Source: Acidobacteriota bacterium
GTDB lineage: Bacteria; Acidobacteriota; Terriglobia; Terriglobales; Acidobacteriaceae
DNA: 64,000 nt
Direction: 5' to 3'
NCBI GenBank assembly: GCA_003010405.1
Contig: PJLO01000007.1
Span: 1 to 64,000 of the forward strand
Shown here piece after piece: positions 7,917-24,582 of the stretch. The notes under the pieces were generated by a model. That model worked only from the letters and a program-made list of their open reading frames with translations, did not search any database and was not told where the DNA came from. Position 1 is the first letter of the stretch; each line of letters opens with the position of its first letter. The translations under genes were made by a program, and so were the position numbers.

Positions 7917-8660
7917 CTAGAGCACCGCAAACAAATGCGGCAACACCTCGCCGGCCTTGCCCTGGAACACTCGGGTGAAGGCCTCGGCATTGGCCGGGTG
8001 CTCCGGCCCAACATAATAGGTGCGCACCACAGCGGAACCTCCCGTATAGCGCTCGTTAGCCCAATGCACGAAACTTGCCGCGGGTTGTACCACGCCGGAG
8101 GTTCCAACCACCAGCATCACGGTACAGCGGTGGAGTTCTTCGATGATGCGATCCATGTGAAAAGGCACTTCACCAAACCACACGATATTCGGACGGATGT
8201 GCCCTCCACATTCGCAGCGAAGCTGCTCGGCTTTGGTTTGACAGAAAATGCGTTTATCGGTGAAGGGCTCGCGGGTGCAACTGTCGCAGCACGATTGGAA
8301 GAGTTCCCCGTGCATGTGCACAAGGTTGCGCGATCCCGCCCGCTCATGCAGGTCATCCACGTTTTGCGTACACAGAAAATAGCGCTCACCGAGTTTGTGC
8401 TCCAGCTTCGCCAGGGCGGCGTGTGCGGGATTGGGCTCAGCGAGCAAAGCAGCTTTGCGGCGCATTGAATAAAAACGCCATACGCGTTCGGGATCGCGCT
8501 TCCAGCCGCCCGGGGAAGCTACATCTTCTACGCGCTCTCCTTCCCAGAGGCCACCTGCTCCACGGAATGTTGCCAATCCGCTCTCGGCGCTCACGCCAGC
8601 ACCGGTCAGCACGAAAACGTGGTCGTTCTCGCAAATTTCGATCTGCTTGGAATTACTCAT
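7917..8660 (-). CDS. cobB: NAD-dependent protein deacylase, sirtuin (CobB/SIRT5-like)
   Basis: A 247-residue sirtuin that removes acyl groups from lysine using NAD. The NAD-binding motif VLTGAGVSAESGLATFR lies at about 13-29, the TQNVDDLHERAG catalytic region with QNVD at about 99-102, and the catalytic His in HMHGEL. Four zinc cysteines are visible: two in CCDSC and two in the later CECGG, with further cysteines nearby. The Y-x-x-R motif in FYSMRRKA corresponds to the Tyr/Arg pair that reads negatively charged acyl groups in class III sirtuins, so desuccinylase/demalonylase activity is plausible. It starts at ATG 8660, divergent from the his operon leader. Confidence 0.93.
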   Translation of the reverse strand: MSNSKQIEICENDHVFVLTGAGVSAESGLATFRGAGGLWEGERVEDVASPGGWKRDPERVWRFYSMRRKAALLAEPNPAHAALAKLEHKLGERYFLCTQNVDDLHERAGSRNLVHMHGELFQSCCDSCTREPFTDKRIFCQTKAEQLRCECGGHIRPNIVWFGEVPFHMDRIIEELHRCTVMLVVGTSGVVQPAASFVHWANERYTGGSAVVRTYYVGPEHPANAEAFTRVFQGKAGEVLPHLFAVL

Positions 8661-8830: not shown

Positions 8831-8860
8831 TTGACCGCAGCGCTACTCTCTATTTAGGAT
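8831..8860 (+). promoter_or_regulatory. Possible his operon promoter
   Basis: TTGACC (8831-8836) and TAGGAT (8855-8860) are separated by 18 bases and resemble -35 and -10 elements of a housekeeping sigma factor. If used, transcription would begin almost at the ATG of the leader peptide (8869), giving a nearly leaderless message. The same AGGA could instead act as a Shine-Dalgarno sequence nine bases before that ATG, which would place the promoter further upstream. The two readings exclude each other and sequence alone does not settle it. Confidence 0.3.
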
Positions 8861-8868
8861 TATCCCTA

Positions 8869-8946
8869 ATGATCACTCTGCTGCATCACCGCCATCACCA
8901 TCATCACCATACGGTGTGTCGGCGGAGGTGCGTGGATAATTTGTAA
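8869..8946 (+). CDS. hisL: his operon leader peptide (eight His codons)
   Basis: A 25-codon frame, ATG 8869 to TAA 8944-8946, reads [20 protein letters not shown] followed by CVDNL. Eight of nine consecutive codons (8884-8910) are histidine, mixing CAT and CAC. It is followed by an intrinsic terminator and then hisI, exactly as in enteric histidine attenuators, where ribosome stalling at His codons reports charged tRNA-His. Possible pairings support switching: CCGCC inside the His tract (8889-8893) with GGCGG (8921-8925), against GTCGGCGG (8918-8925) with CCGCTGGC (8970-8977). The peptide itself has no other known role. Confidence 0.88.
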
Positions 8947-8967
8947 ACGGTAATCATCCAAGCACTG

Positions 8968-9005
8968 GCCCGCTGGCGCAAACCTACCCAGCGGGCTTTC
9001 TTTTT
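8968..9005 (+). terminator. his attenuator terminator
   Basis: GCCCGCTGG (8968-8976) and CCAGCGGGC (8988-8996) form a perfect nine-base-pair stem with an 11-base loop, followed by TTTCTTTTT. The left arm overlaps the segment 8970-8977 that could pair with 8918-8925 (eight pairs, two of them G-U), so terminator and antiterminator are mutually exclusive. An extra stem TGCGTGGAT (8929-8937) with ATCCAAGCA (8956-8964), one mismatch, lies between and may act as a pause structure. hisI starts 58 bases downstream. Confidence 0.88.
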
Positions 9006-9062
9006 GCTGCTGAGGCGGGTGAGTGCTCCAGAGAGACCAGTCAAGACAGGAGTAGGACAATA

Positions 9063-9410
9063 ATGCAGATCGATTTCGAGAAAATGGGAGGACTCGCTCC
9101 AGCCATCGTTCAGGATGCTGACAATGGCGAGGTTCTCATGGTGGGGTTCATGAACCAGGAAGCGCTCGATAAAACGCTTCAAACCGGCTACGTGACTTTT
9201 TACAGCCGAACCCGCAATAAGTTGTGGACCAAGGGCGAGACCAGCGGCAATCGGCTGCGGCTTACCTATGCCGCGACCGACTGCGATACGGACACAGTTC
9301 TGTGCAAAGTTCGCGTTGAAGGCGACGGCCTGGTCTGCCACGAAGGTACGCGCTCCTGCTTCACAAAACCTATGCCCTTTGCGGCAGTCTCGGAGGTCTC
9401 AAATGCCTAA
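9063..9410 (+). CDS. hisI: Phosphoribosyl-AMP cyclohydrolase
   Basis: A 115-residue stand-alone HisI that opens the adenine ring of phosphoribosyl-AMP in histidine synthesis. Family motifs are [18 protein letters not shown] (about 39-56), the Mg/Zn-binding DCDTDTVL (about 75-82) and CHEGTRSCF (about 97-105). The C-terminal HisE pyrophosphohydrolase domain seen in fused HisIE proteins is missing, and no hisE is in the operon, so that step must be encoded elsewhere. It is first in the operon rather than last, the more usual place, and overlaps hisG by eight bases. Confidence 0.95.
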
Positions 9411-10275
9411 AATCCGCCTCGGAATACCCAAGGGTTCGCTGCAGGACGCAACCATCGCACTATTTGCGGCCGCTGGATTCAAGATTTACGCTAATGGCCG
9501 CTCCTACTTTCCTTCCACGGACGATCCCGATCTGGAGTGCATGTTGATCCGCGCACAAGAAATGGCGCGCTATGTCGAGCAGGGCGTGTTGGACGCCGGA
9601 CTTACCGGTCTTGACTGGGTGCTTGAAAGCGGGCGCAAGGTCGAAGCCGTTTGCGACCTGATCTACTCCAAGCAAAGCCGCGCAGGCGTACGCTGGGTTC
9701 TGGCGGTGCCGGAAGATTCACCTGTGCGATGCGCTGAAGATCTTTCGGGCAAGATTATTGCGACCGAACTGGTAGAGGTAACAAAGAACTACTTCGCTTC
9801 CAAGAATGTTCCCGTGCAGGTGGACTTCAGCTGGGGCGCTACCGAAGTAAAGCCACCAATGCTGGCCGACGCCATCGTCGAAGTCACCGAAACAGGAAGT
9901 TCGCTTCGGGCCAATCGCCTGCGCATTGTGGAGACCGTACTGGAATCCAATACTCAGGTTATTGCCAACAAGAAGGCCTATGCCGATGAATGGAAGCGCC
10001 AGAAGATCGACAACATTGCCTTGATGTTGCAGGGCGCCATCGCCGCCCAGGGTCGCGTCGGACTGATGCTCAACGTTCAGCAGAGCGACCTGCAGTCAGT
10101 AATCGCTGTGCTGCCCGCACTCAACTCACCCACGATCTCCGCACTCAGCAACTCCGATTGGGTCGCCGTCAACACCATCCTGGAAGAAAGGATTGTTCGT
10201 GACGTCATTCCGCGCCTGAAAGCCGCTGGCGCTACCGGAATCGTCGAGTATCCGCTGAACAAGGTGGTGATGTAA
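9403..10275 (+). CDS. hisG: ATP phosphoribosyltransferase, long form
   Basis: A 290-residue HisG that joins ATP and PRPP in the first, feedback-controlled step of histidine synthesis. The ATG at 9403 is chosen because [14 protein letters not shown] is the normal family N-terminus and GGAGG lies six bases before it. An upstream in-frame start would only extend into hisI. Motifs include GLDWVLE and the PRPP-site region [20 protein letters not shown]. The C-terminal 75 residues correspond to the ACT-like histidine-binding domain of long-form HisG, so HisZ is not required. The stop codon TAA overlaps the ATG of hisD. Confidence 0.95.
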
Positions 10276-11519
10276 TGAAGCTGCTCAGTGGCGAGGAGGC
10301 GGCGAAAGCCGTCCTCTCACTCGCTCATCGCTATGAGTCGTTTGATCCCGCCCTGGAAAGCACCGTCGCCGGGATCGTGAAGCACGTTCGCACCGGCGGC
10401 GACGCCGCACTGCTCGACTACGCACATAAGTTCGACGGACTTGCACAGGGTGCGTCCATGCGTGTCTCCGAACAGGAACTGCAGGCGGCAATTGGCATGG
10501 TGAGCGCCGATTTCATTCGGGCCATTGAGACAGCGGCAAAAAACATCCGCAACTTTGCCGAGTGGCAGCTTCCGCGACCCTGGTTTCGATCCATCCATCC
10601 GGGGTTGCGCGTTGGTCAGGCGATCCGCCCGCTGGAATCGGTAGGCTGCTACGCTCCCGGCGGACGTTATCCTCTACCCTCGACCGTGCTCATGACTGTT
10701 ATCCCCGCGCAGGTTGCGGGCGTACCTCGCATTGCCGTGGCCTCACCGCGTCCCGCGCCGGAGACATTGGCCGCAGCGGCCCTTATCGGAGTCACAGAGT
10801 TTTACCGCATAGGCGGCTCTCAGGCAATTGCCGCATTCGCCTACGGCACGGAAAGCATTCCGCGGGTCAATAAGATCGTTGGCCCCGGCAACATCTATGT
10901 CACCCTGGCCAAAAAGCAGGTCGCCTTTGATTGCGGTATCGACTTTCTTGCCGGGCCGACCGAGATTGTTTACTGCGCAACCGAAGGCAATGCGGAGTTC
11001 ATCGCCAGCGACCTGGTGGCGCAGGCGGAGCACGATCCGGAGGCGCTCTGCATCTTTGTGACTGCCAGCACTCGCCTTGCAAAGGCCGTGGTAAAACACG
11101 CTACGGACATGGCAAAGGACAACCCAATAGCAAAACAGTCGCTGGCCGCACGCGGGGTGGTCCTGGTTGCCAAGAGCCGGAAGCAGGCACTCGAATGGAC
11201 CAATGAACTCGGCGGAGAACACGTCAGCGTGCCTTCGGAAGACGTGTACGCGGTGAAGTGCGCAGGCTCGATTTTCCTGGGCGACTACACTGCACAGTCA
11301 CTGGGAGATTACGCCAGCGGTCCCAACCACACGCTGCCCACGGGCAATGTGGCGCGTTACCGTGGTGGACTTAATGTTATGGATTTCGTTCGCATCATCA
11401 CCATTCAGGAAGCGAACCGCAAGGGCCTGGAAAAGATTGCACCAACGGTCACGCTGCTGGCCGAAGCGGAGGGTTTGAAGGGCCACGCTGCGAGCGTGCG
11501 TGTGAGGTTGAAGAAATGA
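10275..11519 (+). CDS. hisD: Histidinol dehydrogenase
   Basis: A 414-residue HisD that catalyses the last two oxidations, histidinol to histidine, with NAD and a bound zinc. Visible signatures are YAPGGRYPLPSTVLMTVIPA, the family-specific KIVGPGNIYVTLAKKQV, QAEHDPEALCI and the zinc/substrate region SGPNHTLPTGNVARYRGGL. Length is close to that of other bacterial HisD proteins. Start and stop overlap the neighbours (TAATG with hisG, ATGA with hisC), which suggests translational coupling along the operon. Confidence 0.97.
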   Translation: MKLLSGEEAAKAVLSLAHRYESFDPALESTVAGIVKHVRTGGDAALLDYAHKFDGLAQGASMRVSEQELQAAIGMVSADFIRAIETAAKNIRNFAEWQLPRPWFRSIHPGLRVGQAIRPLESVGCYAPGGRYPLPSTVLMTVIPAQVAGVPRIAVASPRPAPETLAAAALIGVTEFYRIGGSQAIAAFAYGTESIPRVNKIVGPGNIYVTLAKKQVAFDCGIDFLAGPTEIVYCATEGNAEFIASDLVAQAEHDPEALCIFVTASTRLAKAVVKHATDMAKDNPIAKQSLAARGVVLVAKSRKQALEWTNELGGEHVSVPSEDVYAVKCAGSIFLGDYTAQSLGDYASGPNHTLPTGNVARYRGGLNVMDFVRIITIQEANRKGLEKIAPTVTLLAEAEGLKGHAASVRVRLKK

Positions 11520-12625
11520 GCACCAAATTGCGCGCCCGCCGCGCCGTAGAAACCATGAAGGAGTATCACCCGCCATTAGCAGGTCGTGACGGATTGCGCC
11601 TCGATTTCAATGAGAACGTCGATGGCTGCTCGCCTTGCGTTCTCAAAGTCCTGCACTCCCTCACCGCTGACACGCTCAATAAATATCCTGAGCGGGAACC
11701 CGGTGAGTGGGCCGTGGCTCAAAATCTCGGAGTAGAGCCCAGCCAGGTGCTGTTGACCAATGGCATGGATGAGGCGATTCACCTGCTTGCGGAAACCTAT
11801 CTGGAGCCGGGGGACGAGGCTCTAGTCGCCGTGCCCACGTTCAGCATGTATGAAATCTATGCACTGGCCACCGGAGCGACGGTTCGAACCGTGCAAGTAG
11901 GAGAAGCAATGCAATTTCCTGCGACTGAATTGCTGAACGCAATTACGCCGCAGACTCGGCTCATCTGCATTGCCAATCCCAATAATCCGACGGGAGCGAT
12001 CGCCTCTCGTGAGCAATTGCTTGCCATTCTGAATGCCGCGCCAGAGGCCGCCGTGTTGATCGACGAAGCCTACATTCACTTTGGCGGTGAAAGCCTCCTC
12101 GATCTGGTTGGCAGTATTGACAATCTGTTCGTTGGCCGCACTTTTTCCAAAGCGCACGGACTCGCAGGCTTCCGCCTTGGCGCACTGCTTGGCTCGGCTG
12201 CGCAACTCAAAATGGTGCGCCGCGTCGCTTCGCCTTACAACGTAAACGGTATTGCGCTCACTTGCCTTGCAGCCGCGCTCGATGACCGCGACTACATCGC
12301 CAGCTACATCGCCCAGGTACTCGAAGGCCGCAGCAGGCTGGAACGCTTCTACCGCGAGCAAGGCATTCCGTACTGGCCCTCGCAGGCGAACTTTGTCCTT
12401 GCCTACTTCGGTGATTTTCACCAGCAACTTGTTCAGGAGATGCGGCAGCGCGGCATACTCGTACGCAACCGCAATAGCGATCCCGGTTGCCAGGGCTGCG
12501 TACGAATTACGCTGGGCAATCGTTTGCAAACTCAACGCCTGTTGCGCGAACTTCCAGAGGCGCTCGCCGCTATCGGTTTCACGCCGCAACCCCGCCCCAC
12601 GCTCGTCGCCAAGGAGGCCAAATGA
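11516..12625 (+). CDS. hisC: Histidinol-phosphate aminotransferase
   Basis: A 369-residue class I/II PLP aminotransferase that converts imidazole acetol phosphate to histidinol phosphate. The N-terminal [14 protein letters not shown], the [10 protein letters not shown] motif, [12 protein letters not shown] and the PLP-lysine segment [13 protein letters not shown] are all present. Position in the operon supports HisC rather than another aminotransferase. It starts four bases inside hisD (ATGA) and ends in the same way at hisB. Confidence 0.96.
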
Positions 12626-13233
12626 GCAAAACCGAGAAGACTCAGCCAAGAGGCACCGAGCTTGAACGCATCACAACGGAAACCCAAATCGCGATTGCGC
12701 TCAACATCGACGGAACCGGAATTTATAAAGTAGAGACGGGCATACGCTTCTTTGACCACATGCTGGAACTGTTTACCCGGCATGGCGGATTCGACCTGGC
12801 GCTGGCCTGTCGCGGCGATCTCGACGTCGATCAGCATCACACCGTGGAAGACGTAGGCATTGCCCTGGGAGAAGCGTTCGATCGCGCTCTCGGCGATAAA
12901 AAAGGAATTCTTCGCGCGGGATATTTCCTGATGCCAATGGATGAGACTCTCGGCATTGCCGCCGTAGATCTCTCCGGACGCGCCGCCTGCGTGGTTGATG
13001 CAAAAGTTCGCGTGCGTCTGGTGGGCGATCTTCAGAGCGAGTTGGTTTTCGATTTCTTTGAGGGGTTTGCGCGTGGAGCGCGCGCCAACGTTCACCTTAA
13101 GACCATGTATGGCCGCTCCAATCATCACAAGATTGAAGCGCTCTTCAAGGCTTTCGCGCGCGCTTTGCGTGTGGCCTGCAGCAAGGATCAACGGTTGGCA
13201 GAGATGCTGCCTTCGACTAAAGGGCTTTTGTAG
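12622..13233 (+). CDS. hisB: Imidazoleglycerol-phosphate dehydratase
   Basis: A 203-residue monofunctional HisB dehydratase without the histidinol-phosphatase domain of enteric HisB; a phosphatase must come from elsewhere. Metal-binding motifs are [12 protein letters not shown] (about 43-54) and [13 protein letters not shown] (about 72-84), plus [14 protein letters not shown] near the C-terminus. ATG 12622 is chosen because it overlaps the hisC stop (ATGA), follows AAGGAGG, and gives the normal family length. The acidic/basic first 15 residues are slightly long but not unusual. Confidence 0.96.
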
Positions 13234-13854
13234 ATGATCACTCTTATAGATTACAAAGCGGGCAACCTGACCAGCGTGCGCAAGGCTTTCACTCATCTCG
13301 GACAGGAGTCTGTGATCACCGACGATCCTGAGGTCGTGCGGAACGCGAAGGTTCTCGTGCTGCCGGGAGTCGGCCACTTCTGCACCACGGAGCGGCTTGC
13401 GGCAAGCGGCGTGCGCGATGCCGTGCTGGATGCAATTTCACGCGGCACTCCGTTCCTCGGCATCTGCGTCGGAATGCAATGGCAGTACGCGGGGTCAACG
13501 GAAGCACCGGAAACAAAAGGTCTGGGACTGTTCGAAGGTTCGTGTGAGCGTTTTCAGACCAAACTCAAGGTACCGCATGTCGGATGGAACCAAATTCAAC
13601 GCACTGTGGAGGGACAGAACTCTCGGCTGCTCGAAGGCGTGCCCGATGAGAGTTTCGTCTATTTCACGCACTCGTATCGCGCACCTGTCGTAGCCGGCGT
13701 CTGTGCCGTGACCGTCTACGATGAAATTTTTGCGTCCTGTGTTGAGCGGGACAATGTTTTCGGCGTTCAGTTTCATCCGGAAAAGTCCGGCGACACCGGT
13801 TTGCGCATTCTCAAGAATTTCTGTAACTACGCTGCCGAAAGGAGCGCGCGATGA
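13234..13854 (+). CDS. hisH: Imidazole glycerol phosphate synthase, glutaminase subunit
   Basis: A 206-residue class I glutamine amidotransferase that supplies ammonia to HisF. The N-terminus [18 protein letters not shown] and the nucleophile elbow FLGICVGMQ with the catalytic Cys are present, as is the His-Glu end of the triad in VQFHPEKSG. The start codon follows the hisB stop directly with no gap. The complex with HisF makes imidazole glycerol phosphate and AICAR, which feeds purine synthesis. Confidence 0.96.
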
Positions 13855-14648
13855 GCATCGGAATTACCAAGCGGATCATCGCCTGTCTCGACGTGACCAA
13901 AGGCCGCGTCGTTAAGGGCGTGCAGTTTGTCGACCTCATCGACGCCGGAGATCCGGCTGAACTCGCGCATCTCCACGCAACCAGCGGCGCAGATGAAATC
14001 GTGCTTCTCGATATCACTGCCACAAGTGACGCCCGCCCCATCCTCATCGACGTGGTGCGGCGCACCGCTCGCCAGATTTTTGTCCCATTCACAGTGGGCG
14101 GCGGCGTACGATCTCTCGACGATGCTTCCGCGCTCTTCGACGCGGGTGCAGACAAGATCAGCATCAACTCCGCTGCCATCAAGAATCCCGGGCTTATCAC
14201 CGAAATCGCTGAGCGTTTTGGCTCGCAGGCGGTCATCGTCGCAATTGATGCCAAGCGCAAGACGGGTGCCGCGGTTTCGGCTGAAGGCACCATTCAGGCC
14301 GAGGCCTATCTCGCCGGGGGGCGCATTGCCACCGGACTCGATGCAGTCGAGTGGGCGCGTGAGGCCGAGTCGCGAGGCGCGGGAGAGATTTTGCTCACTT
14401 CGATGGACTGCGACGGAACCCGCGCGGGTTTCGACTGCCCGTTAACCGCAGCCGTGGCAAAAGCCGTAAATATCCCGGTCATTGCCAGTGGTGGCGCGGG
14501 TTCGGGTAATCATTTTGTGGACGTATTCAAGGCCGGATGCGCCGATGCCGCCCTTGCGGCTTCCATCTTCCATTTCGGCATTCACGATGTACGCGAACTG
14601 AAGTCGCAACTCCAGCGCGAAGGCATCCCGGTCAGGCTGCCTTGCTAG
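13851..14648 (+). CDS. hisF: Imidazole glycerol phosphate synthase, cyclase subunit
   Basis: A 265-residue (beta/alpha)8 barrel. The first strand [19 protein letters not shown] carries the catalytic Asp, the phosphate loops VGGGVRS and ASGGAGS are visible, and [12 protein letters not shown] carries the second catalytic Asp. The barrel is slightly longer than the 250-258 residues common in the family. It overlaps hisH by four bases. A 30-base gap separates it from hisA. Confidence 0.96.
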
Positions 14649-14678
14649 ACGCTGCACGATTATTTCAGGAAGTGAAAA

Positions 14679-15353
14679 ATGCTTATTCCCTCAATTGATC
14701 TCATGGGCGGCAAAGTCGTCCAGCTTGTGCAGGGTGAAAAGAAAGCACTCGAATTCGACGACCTTCAGTACTGGATCGACCGCTTTCTACCCTACCCAAT
14801 GGTGCAGCTTATCGACCTCGATGCAGCCATGGGAAAGGGCGAAAACACTGCGCTCATTCATCATATTTGCCAGCATCTTCCGGTCCAGGTAGGCGGCGGA
14901 ATTCGTTCCGTTGAAGCCGCTTCGAAAATTCTGCAAGCCGGGGCCAAGAAGGTCATCATTGGCTCGGCTCTTCTGAAGAACGGTGCGGTGGATATCGAGA
15001 TGGCGAAGGCCTTTGCTCACTACGCCGCACCCGCGCGCCTGCTCTTCGCCGTCGATTCCCGCGGGGGCAAGGTCTCGATTAAGGGCTGGAAGGAGAGCAC
15101 CACGCTCACGCCGGAAGAAATGATGCGGCAGACCGGTGAATACTGCTCTGGATACCTCTACACCCACATTGATACCGAAGGCACGATGAGCGGCTTCCCC
15201 ATGCACGTGATTCCCGGGCTCAAGGCCGCTACGACTCGCAGGCTCATCGTAGCTGGGGGGATAAAGTCCATGGACGAAGTGAACCGGCTAGATGCCGAGG
15301 GCGTGGACGCCGTGGTAGGCATGGCTGTCTATACCGGCGCGCTAAAGGCATAG
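14679..15353 (+). CDS. hisA: ProFAR isomerase (HisA)
   Basis: A 224-residue (beta/alpha)8 isomerase converting ProFAR to PRFAR. Strand 1, MLIPSIDLMGGKVVQLVQG, holds the catalytic Asp, LPVQVGGGIRS is the phosphate site, and HIDTEGTMSGF holds the second catalytic Asp. It is somewhat shorter than the usual 240 residues. The divergent segment FDDLQYWIDRFLPYP replaces the common YGDDPVEVA-type loop. Position after hisF, where hisA often precedes hisF, fits the substrate order. A strong terminator follows. Confidence 0.93.
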   Translation: MLIPSIDLMGGKVVQLVQGEKKALEFDDLQYWIDRFLPYPMVQLIDLDAAMGKGENTALIHHICQHLPVQVGGGIRSVEAASKILQAGAKKVIIGSALLKNGAVDIEMAKAFAHYAAPARLLFAVDSRGGKVSIKGWKESTTLTPEEMMRQTGEYCSGYLYTHIDTEGTMSGFPMHVIPGLKAATTRRLIVAGGIKSMDEVNRLDAEGVDAVVGMAVYTGALKA

Positions 15354-22471: not shown

Positions 22472-23704
22472 ATGGGACGATTCACTGGAGTGCTTGGATT
22501 GGTTTTGATACTGGCATTCGCCTGGCTTTTTTCCAACAATCGCAAAGCCATTCGTTGGCGCATCGTGGCGACGGGAATCGCGCTGCAAGTACTTTTCGCC
22601 ATTCTCGTGATCAAAGTACGGTGGGGACAACTGGCCATCGCAAAGGCGGGGGAAGGCGCAAAGCAATTACTCGCCTGCTCTTTTGCCGGTTCACGGTTCG
22701 TCTTTGGAGAGGCGGGAGCGCAACACTCCAACCTTGGTTTCATTTTCGCGTTTCAGGTATTGCCGGGGATTATTTTCGTCGCTGCATTCTTCTCCATTCT
22801 TTACTACTTCGGGATTATGCAGGTTATGATTCGCATGGTTGCCGTCGTGATGGAGAAGTTCATGGGGGCAAGCGGTGCAGAGTCTCTTAATGTTGCGGCC
22901 TCTATCGTGATGGGCCAGACCGAAGCGCCACTGACGATTCGCCCATTTCTTCCGCGCCTCACGCAATCGGAACTCATGGTAGTGATGACCGCGGGCATGG
23001 CACACGTTTCAGCCAGTATTCTGGCCGCCTATATCGCCACGGGCGTTGCGCCGCAACACTTGTTGGCAGCGATAATTATGACTGCGCCTGGAACACTCAC
23101 CGTAGCCAAAATGCTGGTGCCAGAGACCGAGATTCCGGAGACCGCCAGCGGAGCCGAACTGCCCAGGGAAGAACGAGCCAGCAATGTGCTGGAAGCGGCG
23201 GCTAAAGGAACGAGCGACGGTTTGAGCTTGGCACTGAATGTGGCGGCCATGCTGATCTCTTTTCTGGCTATCATTTTCCTGGTCAACTCCATTTTGGGCA
23301 GCACGCACAGTTTTCTCGCCGCACACGGATTCGCCTGGTTCCCGGCAAGCCTGGAAAAGATTTTCGGCGTTCTTTTCGCTCCCATTGCCTTTATTATCGG
23401 AGTACCCTGGCGCGATTGCATTGCCGTCGGTAATCTTCTGGGCACGCGCATGGTGCTGAACGAACTCGTTGCCTTCACCATGCTGGGAGCTCAGAAAGCG
23501 GTTTTAGACGCGCGTTCGTTCACGCTTGCCACATTCGCGCTTTGCGGTTTCGCCAATTTCGGCTCGATTGGTATTCAGATCGGCGGCCTCGGAGCGCTGG
23601 CGCCATCACGTCGCGGCGATCTAGCACGTCTTGGCTTTAAAGCAATGATCGCCGGAACCCTGGCGAACCTTATGTCGGCTTGCATTGTGGGAGTTTTCTT
23701 ATGA
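22472..23704 (+). CDS. nupC: Concentrative nucleoside transporter (NupC/CNT family)
   Basis: A 410-residue inner-membrane permease with about ten hydrophobic segments. CNT signatures are GSRFVFGE, FQVLPGIIFVAAFFSILYY, SIVMGQTEAPLTIRPFLP and the late CGFANFGSIGIQIGGLGALAP. These proteins import nucleosides with sodium or protons. ATG 22472 is preferred over a TTG 18 bases upstream because GAGAGGGAAGC lies before it. The stop codon overlaps the next start (ATGA), tying the importer to purine nucleoside phosphorylase. Confidence 0.93.
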   Translation: MGRFTGVLGLVLILAFAWLFSNNRKAIRWRIVATGIALQVLFAILVIKVRWGQLAIAKAGEGAKQLLACSFAGSRFVFGEAGAQHSNLGFIFAFQVLPGIIFVAAFFSILYYFGIMQVMIRMVAVVMEKFMGASGAESLNVAASIVMGQTEAPLTIRPFLPRLTQSELMVVMTAGMAHVSASILAAYIATGVAPQHLLAAIIMTAPGTLTVAKMLVPETEIPETASGAELPREERASNVLEAAAKGTSDGLSLALNVAAMLISFLAIIFLVNSILGSTHSFLAAHGFAWFPASLEKIFGVLFAPIAFIIGVPWRDCIAVGNLLGTRMVLNELVAFTMLGAQKAVLDARSFTLATFALCGFANFGSIGIQIGGLGALAPSRRGDLARLGFKAMIAGTLANLMSACIVGVFL

Positions 23705-24582
23705 ATTCGTACGCAGACGCAAAGCATCTCGCGCTGGATGAGTTCACCCGCGCTGAATCCGCAGCACTGGTCATTCGTATGCAGCTTTCTCAAAAACCGC
23801 AACTCGGAGCGCCCGAAATTGCAGTCGTGCTGGGCAGCGGCCTGGGAGCGTTCGCAGAGGAACTGAAGGATTCAGTTGTCATTCCGTATGGAGATATTCC
23901 GAATTTTCCCCGCCCTACTGCTATCGGCCATGCCGGGCGAATGGTCATTGGAAAACTTGGAGATCTCACGGTTGCGGCAATGCAGGGACGCGCGCATCAG
24001 TACGAGGGTTACAGCAGTCGCGAAACTGCCTTTCCAGTGCGCGTGCTGGGCCAGCTTGGCGTGAAGACTCTGGTTATCACCAATGCAGCCGGAGGCATTA
24101 ATCCGGACTACAAAAAAGGCGCGCTGGTTCTGCTCAGCGACCATATCAATCTGCAGGGCAGCAATCCGCTTAACGGACCGAACGATGACCGCTTCGGGGT
24201 GCGATTCCCAGATATGAGCGAAGCATATTGCCGCAACTACCGCCGTATTGCACTGAACGCCGCGCGCCAACTTGGCATTGAGTTGCAGGAGGGCATCTAC
24301 GCTGCGCTGCCCGGTCCCAGTTATGAAACCCCTGCGGAAATCCGTTATCTGCGCACGATTGGCGCCGATATGGTCGGTATGTCGACCGTGCCGGAAGTCA
24401 TTGTGGCACGGCACATGGGGATCAATGTTCTGGCGATTTCATGTGTAACCAACATGGCTGCGGGATTATTCGAAGGCCATATCAACCATGATGAAGTGTT
24501 GGAGACAGGAGCGCGAGTGCGCGATACCATATGTTCTCTGCTTACCTCAGTTCTTCCTGCGCTTGTGTCGGAAAGCAAGTAA
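23701..24582 (+). CDS. punA: Purine nucleoside phosphorylase (PNP-I, trimeric type)
   Basis: A 293-residue enzyme that phosphorolyses inosine or guanosine (and deoxy forms) to base and (deoxy)ribose-1-phosphate. Motifs are VVLGSGLGAF, MQGRAHQYEGYS, TNAAGGINPDYKKGALVLLSDHIN and YAALPGPSYETPAEIRYL, with VGMSTVPEVIVARH and SCVTNMAAG. It starts on the transporter stop codon. The hypoxanthine product would go to hpt in the same operon. A phosphopentomutase to link it to deoC is not in the window. Confidence 0.94.
   Translation: MNSYADAKHLALDEFTRAESAALVIRMQLSQKPQLGAPEIAVVLGSGLGAFAEELKDSVVIPYGDIPNFPRPTAIGHAGRMVIGKLGDLTVAAMQGRAHQYEGYSSRETAFPVRVLGQLGVKTLVITNAAGGINPDYKKGALVLLSDHINLQGSNPLNGPNDDRFGVRFPDMSEAYCRNYRRIALNAARQLGIELQEGIYAALPGPSYETPAEIRYLRTIGADMVGMSTVPEVIVARHMGINVLAISCVTNMAAGLFEGHINHDEVLETGARVRDTICSLLTSVLPALVSESK

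Follow-up and report, generated by a model that had tools for sequence, protein, structure and literature searches.

The histidine biosynthesis operon (hisIGDCBHFA) of the soil acidobacterium studied here is preceded by a leader which, with a probability of roughly 0.92, controls it as a ribosome-mediated transcription attenuator monitoring charged tRNA-His. It was analyzed in a window of 64,000 nucleotides, i.e., the whole stretch of DNA under study, which belongs to a 3.64-Mb draft genome in 98 contigs. A classical ribosome-mediated his attenuator had been proposed in a sequence-only reading of the window, and the proposal is supported by the conserved His run, the predicted upstream promoter, the covarying antiterminator and the predicted switch. 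The parts that such a reading can see, namely the His frame, the terminator, the alternative pairing and the his operon, were all borne out. The features by which the attenuator class is recognized were found as follows: a short frame rich in codons of the regulated amino acid (8 His in 9 codons), its location directly before the operon of this amino acid (hisI-G-D-C-B-H-F-A), an intrinsic terminator between the leader and the first gene (8967–9005), and a conserved antiterminator which is mutually exclusive with it (B:E versus E:F). The positions of all features are given in Table 1.

Table 1. Features of the his leader region and the downstream operon in the window.
Feature	Position	Strand	Basis
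Sigma-70-like promoter, TTGACC-18 nt-TAGGAT (predicted)	8831–8860	+	Consensus scan
hisL-like leader peptide gene	8869–8946	+	25 codons, stop TAA (8944–8946); sequence reading, kept in relatives
Arm A, pairs with arm B if ribosome-free (protector or pause hairpin)	8876–8891	+	Folding and partner swap; column counts weak
Sensor, His codons 6–7 and 9–14 (8 of 9 codons)	8884–8910	+	Sequence, chance control
Arm B, contains TGTCGGCGGAGG; 5′ arm of the antiterminator	8912–8927	+	Conserved columns, pairing with arm E
C:D hairpin, 8928–8941 with 8952–8965	8928–8965	+	Folding
Arm E, 5′ arm of the terminator and antiterminator partner	8967–8979	+	Folding, alignment
Arm F, 3′ arm of the terminator	8987–8997	+	Alignment pairing
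T-rich tract of the intrinsic terminator	8997–9005	+	Sequence
Shine-Dalgarno-like AGGAG of hisI	9048–9052	+	
hisI, first structural gene	9063–9410	+	PF01502, E 2e-30; phosphoribosyl-AMP cyclohydrolase model above cut-off
Operon after hisI	9403–15353	+	hisG, hisD, hisC, hisB, hisH, hisF, hisA in order
hisG	9403–10275	+	NCBIfam match above cut-off
hisD	10275–11519	+	NCBIfam match above cut-off
hisC	11516–12625	+	NCBIfam match above cut-off
hisB	ends 13233	+	NCBIfam match above cut-off
hisH	13234–13854	+	NCBIfam match above cut-off
hisF	13851–14648	+	NCBIfam match above cut-off
hisA	14679–15353	+	Best NCBIfam match below cut-off (172.8 versus 229 bits)

The suggestion that the host is an acidobacterium agrees with the nearest named relatives of hisI, which are MAGs titled Acidobacteriota, Acidobacteriaceae, and Terriglobia. 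Neither hisE nor a histidinol-phosphatase gene was seen adjacent to the his operon (9063–15353). Divergent to the leader, a gene encoding a Sir2-family NAD-dependent deacylase is located on the minus strand (7917–8660).

The 25-codon frame with eight histidines in nine codons is present as the sequence-only reading had claimed. No other ORF of the 64-kb window exceeds 4 His per 9 codons. In a chance control of 40 third-order Markov sequences of 64 kb, the top His count was 4–5 per 9 codons, and the His run of the window is far beyond chance. The frame is highly unlikely to code for a small metal-binding peptide with a function of its own, lying before hisI by chance and followed by a plain terminator. 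Small His-rich proteins do exist in the same genome, such as the 39-residue one at locus L176, but the leader peptide carries neither a signal peptide nor a Pfam match, and further evidence against a functional peptide comes from the pairing, the distribution and the reading frame of the leader, as described below.

The computational analysis established the parts of the attenuator, their conservation and covariation, and a predicted switch. Folding of the 137 nt from 8869 to 9005, which had been suggested as a check, gave -51.9 kcal/mol (z = -3.9, with none of 200 shuffles as good); the structure is far more stable than the shuffles, and both an antiterminator and a terminator form are predicted. 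The nine-base-pair terminator with a U-tract described earlier was found as a terminator, but its stem is longer and comprises 10–11 pairs (8967–8978 with 8987–8997). It was detected by folding and missed by a simple terminator scan (loop of up to 8 nt), most likely because its loop is longer than 8 nt. The pairing of 8918–8925 with 8970–8977 was read correctly and extends further, to 8916–8925 with 8970–8979. The other proposed pairing, 8889–8893 with 8921–8925, is compatible with an early fold when the RNA polymerase is at 8945, but from 8966 onward the stable protector consists of 8876–8891 paired with 8912–8927. A small C:D hairpin is nested inside the antiterminator and, by folding, fits both states in the window genome.

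In an alignment of 32 leader sequences (A1), the antiterminator (8916–8925 with 8970–8979) shows standard pairs in 94% of the cells, compared to 26–58% when the partner is slid by 1–3 columns. The terminator E:F is paired in 88% of the cells, with six pairs showing compensatory changes on both sides, and the protector A:B in 56%, which is weak by column counts. The covariation score of the antiterminator is 0.236 versus 0.181 ± 0.014 for the shuffles, none of 500 reaching the native value, and in an alignment-free duplex-energy test with 64 leaders the native A:B, B:E, and E:F pairings each beat all 5000 partner permutations; both sets of counts overstate the significance, since the relatives are not independent. 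That arm B pairs and covaries with the terminator argues against a metal-binding peptide followed by a plain terminator. These data also bear on translation-coupled or Rho-dependent control, in which translation of the leader would act via translation of hisI, RNA stability or Rho. The gene hisI has its own Shine-Dalgarno sequence, 58–110 nt behind the terminator, and other outputs of leader peptides are known from the actinobacterial leu and ilv genes (PMC1262725). However, 64 of 65 leaders have a strong hairpin with a T-rich tract behind it, and arm E is common to the terminator and the antiterminator, which makes this kind of control very unlikely compared to transcription attenuation.

The switch was modeled by folding with the ribosome at different positions. 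In the nascent window RNA, in which arm F is not yet made, the antiterminator has a predicted probability of about 1.0 when the A site of the ribosome is at 8884–8902. With the ribosome at the stop codon E:F alone forms, and in the finished RNA without a ribosome A:B, C:D, and E:F are formed. Over 64 leaders, the mean probability of arm E being paired with arm B is 0.79 in the stalled state, 0.45 without a ribosome and 0.02 with the ribosome at the stop codon; when arm B is shuffled, the stalled value is still 0.55 versus the native 0.79, as GC-rich arms pair readily. The stalled and stop states are thus clear in the folding model, the stall favoring the antiterminator and the stop the terminator. 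In the full-length window RNA, the terminator is favored at equilibrium for stalls at 8884–8887 and from 8902 onward, so that kinetics must be invoked for the earliest and the latest stalls. The protector hairpin that would give termination without translation is strong in the window; in the alignment it is paired in 56% of the cells, and by folding it is seen in about half of 64 leaders. In 30 of the 64 leaders, arm B is already on arm E at equilibrium without a ribosome, and by this measure default termination in the absence of translation is therefore not general.

Based on the model, we infer the start site, the stalling of the ribosome, the termination and the response to histidine as follows. 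Transcription would begin at the leader ATG or a few bases before it, and this would allow a ribosome to load at the extreme 5′ end once the RNA emerges. When histidine is ample, the ribosome would pass the His codons, reach the stop codon and cover arm B, leaving arm E free to pair with arm F, so that the RNA polymerase would terminate at about 9005. A shortage of charged tRNA-His would make the ribosome stall on the His codons and cover arm A. Arm B would then be free to capture arm E, by which the terminator would be blocked and the operon transcribed. Without any translation arm A could hold arm B, and termination would be the default in the window genome.

The promoter is predicted upstream of the leader at a conserved place, and not downstream of 8996, where a start of transcription had been named as speaking against the attenuator. 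The end of its -10 box lies 8 nt before the leader ATG, and the transcription start in the window is expected at about 8866–8869. A promoter of the TTGACA/TATAAT type, matching at 9 or more of 12 positions, was found for 73 of 101 unique leaders, compared to 1.9% of shuffled upstream regions. In 69 of these 73 leaders the -10 box ends 6–12 nt upstream of the start codon, with a mode of 8–9. By the usual promoter spacing, the transcript presumably starts 0–5 nt before the leader ATG. No Shine-Dalgarno sequence was found at the leader ATG, the energy of pairing with the anti-Shine-Dalgarno (median -1.8 kcal/mol) being like that of shuffles, whereas the starts of hisI show strong complementarity (median -6.4 kcal/mol). 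By these criteria, i.e., the spacing of the -10 box and the missing Shine-Dalgarno sequence, the leader mRNA is predicted to be near-leaderless. In an independent survey, leaderless starts were assigned to a mean of 13.3% of the genes of three Acidobacteria genomes (PMC3160421).

The earlier reading had called for a comparison with relatives, in which a conserved His run followed by a terminator should be seen, and both were found, in the genomes of the window's own family as well as in further families and classes. The gene hisI could be located in 48 of 61 kin genomes, and its flanks were scanned on both strands for short His-rich frames. In the window's family, a leader with 5–8 His in 9 codons lies just before hisI in all 28 genomes in which this gene could be located; in one of these (G001), the contig with the leader breaks off within hisI. 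The sister family, which belongs to the same order, is represented by ten hisI-bearing genomes, all of them with a leader. Eight of these leaders reach 5 or more His in 9 codons, while the remaining two are weaker and of the same shape (L012, MTFIRHAHAHGHPAHRLDG; L036, MTRCSHRHAPHSHAHGARGSGLL). In other families of the class, five of ten genomes have a leader, and a sixth, weaker candidate is located in L005. The set of named records adds leaders from Acidobacteriaceae, Terriglobia, Bryobacteraceae, Candidatus Sulfopaludibacter, gp6, and other Acidobacteria.

When 396 genomes of the phylum were searched at E 0.01 with an RNA model (R1) built from 32 leaders, 148 gave a match, including 42 of the 44 of the window's family. 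As some of the matches above about E 1e-5 are false, 148 is not the count of true leaders. Twenty matches, nearly all outside the window's family, were inspected together with their neighbors. The strong ones lie upstream of hisI-hisG, and others precede operons which start with hisG (L183, L186, and L202). On the minus strand of L190 (212–386, genome G139), a candidate His-rich leader (MCRDLLNHRHHVHHPRGAEVAAEVLL) lies before a gene that is hisZ-like as judged from its sequence. With leaders before hisI, hisG or a hisZ-like gene, the leader appears to go with whichever gene heads the operon rather than with a particular one. This tracking of the operon start, whatever the first gene, is a further point against a metal-binding peptide.

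Some matches and frames were rejected. L196–L199 (E 2e-5 to 2e-4) show no leader before a his gene, and R1 matches weaker than about E 1e-5 therefore need a check of their neighbors. The His-rich frame of L181 is antisense to a GspE-like gene and is regarded as a chance occurrence. L176, the second R1 match in the window's own genome (E 7e-5), encodes a His-rich protein with a start resembling a signal peptide and is not a leader. Its 39-codon frame (MIALLAGVLLLSAALPAFARKHHHKHHHHRSHHAVQTAE; L176:1441–1560, contig C10 of genome G000, approximately 23678–23801) has a His-rich tail, KHHHKHHHH, is followed by a terminator-like hairpin and probably encodes a small exported metal-binding peptide. 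Furthermore, a His leader (MLITHVAHHHVHHVTQRANL) similar to the acidobacterial ones and a terminator lie before hisI in a record titled Acidimicrobiales (Actinomycetota; L119:1325–1387); transfer, convergence and mis-binning are all possible origins.

In the window's own genome, the regions upstream of trpE-, leuA-, and ilvB-like genes (L203–L213) showed no convincing Trp, Leu/Ile/Val, Phe, Thr or Cys leader. In this genome, codon-sensing attenuation may therefore be confined to his.

The reading frame downstream of the His run differs between the window and its congeners. Relative to the ATG, the arm-B motif TGTCGGCGGAGG of three congeners has an offset of 1 modulo 3, and it lies 26 nt ahead of the TAA; the window keeps the same sequence at offset 0 and at a distance of 27 nt. 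The -1/+1 shifts in the window alter the frame of the antiterminator arm and not the RNA, and reading ends at the aligned TAA. The window peptide has TVCRRRC where the congeners have VSAEA, because the motif is read in another frame. Unless the draft sequence is wrong at this place, which is possible for a genome in 98 contigs, the changed frame with a kept motif points to selection on the pairing. It is a natural experiment that splits the conservation of the RNA from that of the peptide, and a change of frame after the His run with the RNA kept again speaks against a functional peptide.

Searches with known RNA families were also performed. The Rfam family RF00514 (His_leader, gathering score 49 bits) did not match the window, even with the threshold relaxed to E 10, and was above its cut-off in none of 41 kin genomes, while Escherichia coli was positive in the same search; the acidobacterial leader is not a member of RF00514. 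The Rfam matches at the region (MIR2950, Thr_leader, Trp_leader, and fluoride) are chance matches. Thr_leader (RF00506) resembles the leader in a weak alignment of a codon run and a terminator, but with 16.9 bits versus a gathering score of 55 and with the wrong codons and operon, this is a chance likeness of ACC and CAC runs. A T-box or another riboswitch binding tRNA or a metabolite is a negligible alternative. The his genes of Firmicutes and Actinobacteria are indeed subject to T-box control (PMC9413887), but no T-box or riboswitch match at the gathering score was found in the window, the sole riboswitch among the weak matches near the leader is a fluoride riboswitch located upstream (13.9 versus 34 bits), and instead of an aptamer there is a His run that appears to be translated.

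No report of an acidobacterial his attenuator was found in the openly accessible literature, and its novelty is provisional. The mechanism itself is known, and the his attenuator is apparently common in Acidobacteriota and undescribed there. A wider reading is tentative and rather doubtful: near-leaderless His attenuators could be a phylum-wide class that goes back to the ancestor of several acidobacterial classes and arose separately from the enteric attenuator, with ribosomes loading at the 5′ end and the coupling of ribosome and polymerase set by leaderless initiation and not by a Shine-Dalgarno sequence and a pause hairpin. The near-leaderless layout makes it testable how the leader ribosome synchronizes with the polymerase without a 5′-UTR. 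In addition, an Rfam family could be made from the RNA model and the roughly 100 leaders, to the benefit of annotation.

Like the enteric hisL, the acidobacterial leader combines a His-codon run in a short frame, alternative RNA pairings and an intrinsic terminator before the his operon. Unlike in the enteric system, hisI is the first gene of the operon, no Shine-Dalgarno sequence precedes the leader frame and the switch is a single B:E antiterminator. The enteric his leader follows the A–F hairpin scheme, from which the acidobacterial hairpin layout differs. That such leaders are best known from enteric bacteria and that this one lies outside the Proteobacteria was stated correctly before; it is, however, not the first such case, as His-codon attenuators were predicted in Firmicutes, i.e., in the Bacillus cereus group, Peptostreptococcaceae, and Erysipelotrichales as well as for hisS and hisZ of bacilli (PMC9413887; PMC2965389). 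These share with the acidobacterial leader a His-rich leader peptide and a terminator and antiterminator before his genes outside the Proteobacteria (PMC9413887; PMC2965389). They belong to another phylum and have 3–5 His in a row, compared to 5–8 in 9 codons in Acidobacteriota, and are set apart here by their descriptions. For the trpL attenuator RNA of Sinorhizobium meliloti, a measured 5′ end lies at the ATG of the leader peptide (PMC7298713). A start at or near the ATG is also predicted for the acidobacterial leader from the promoter spacing, whereas the S. meliloti attenuator differs in its Trp codons, its trpE(G) operon and its origin in the Alphaproteobacteria. The traits which distinguish the acidobacterial his leader are its wide distribution and its predicted near-leaderless start.
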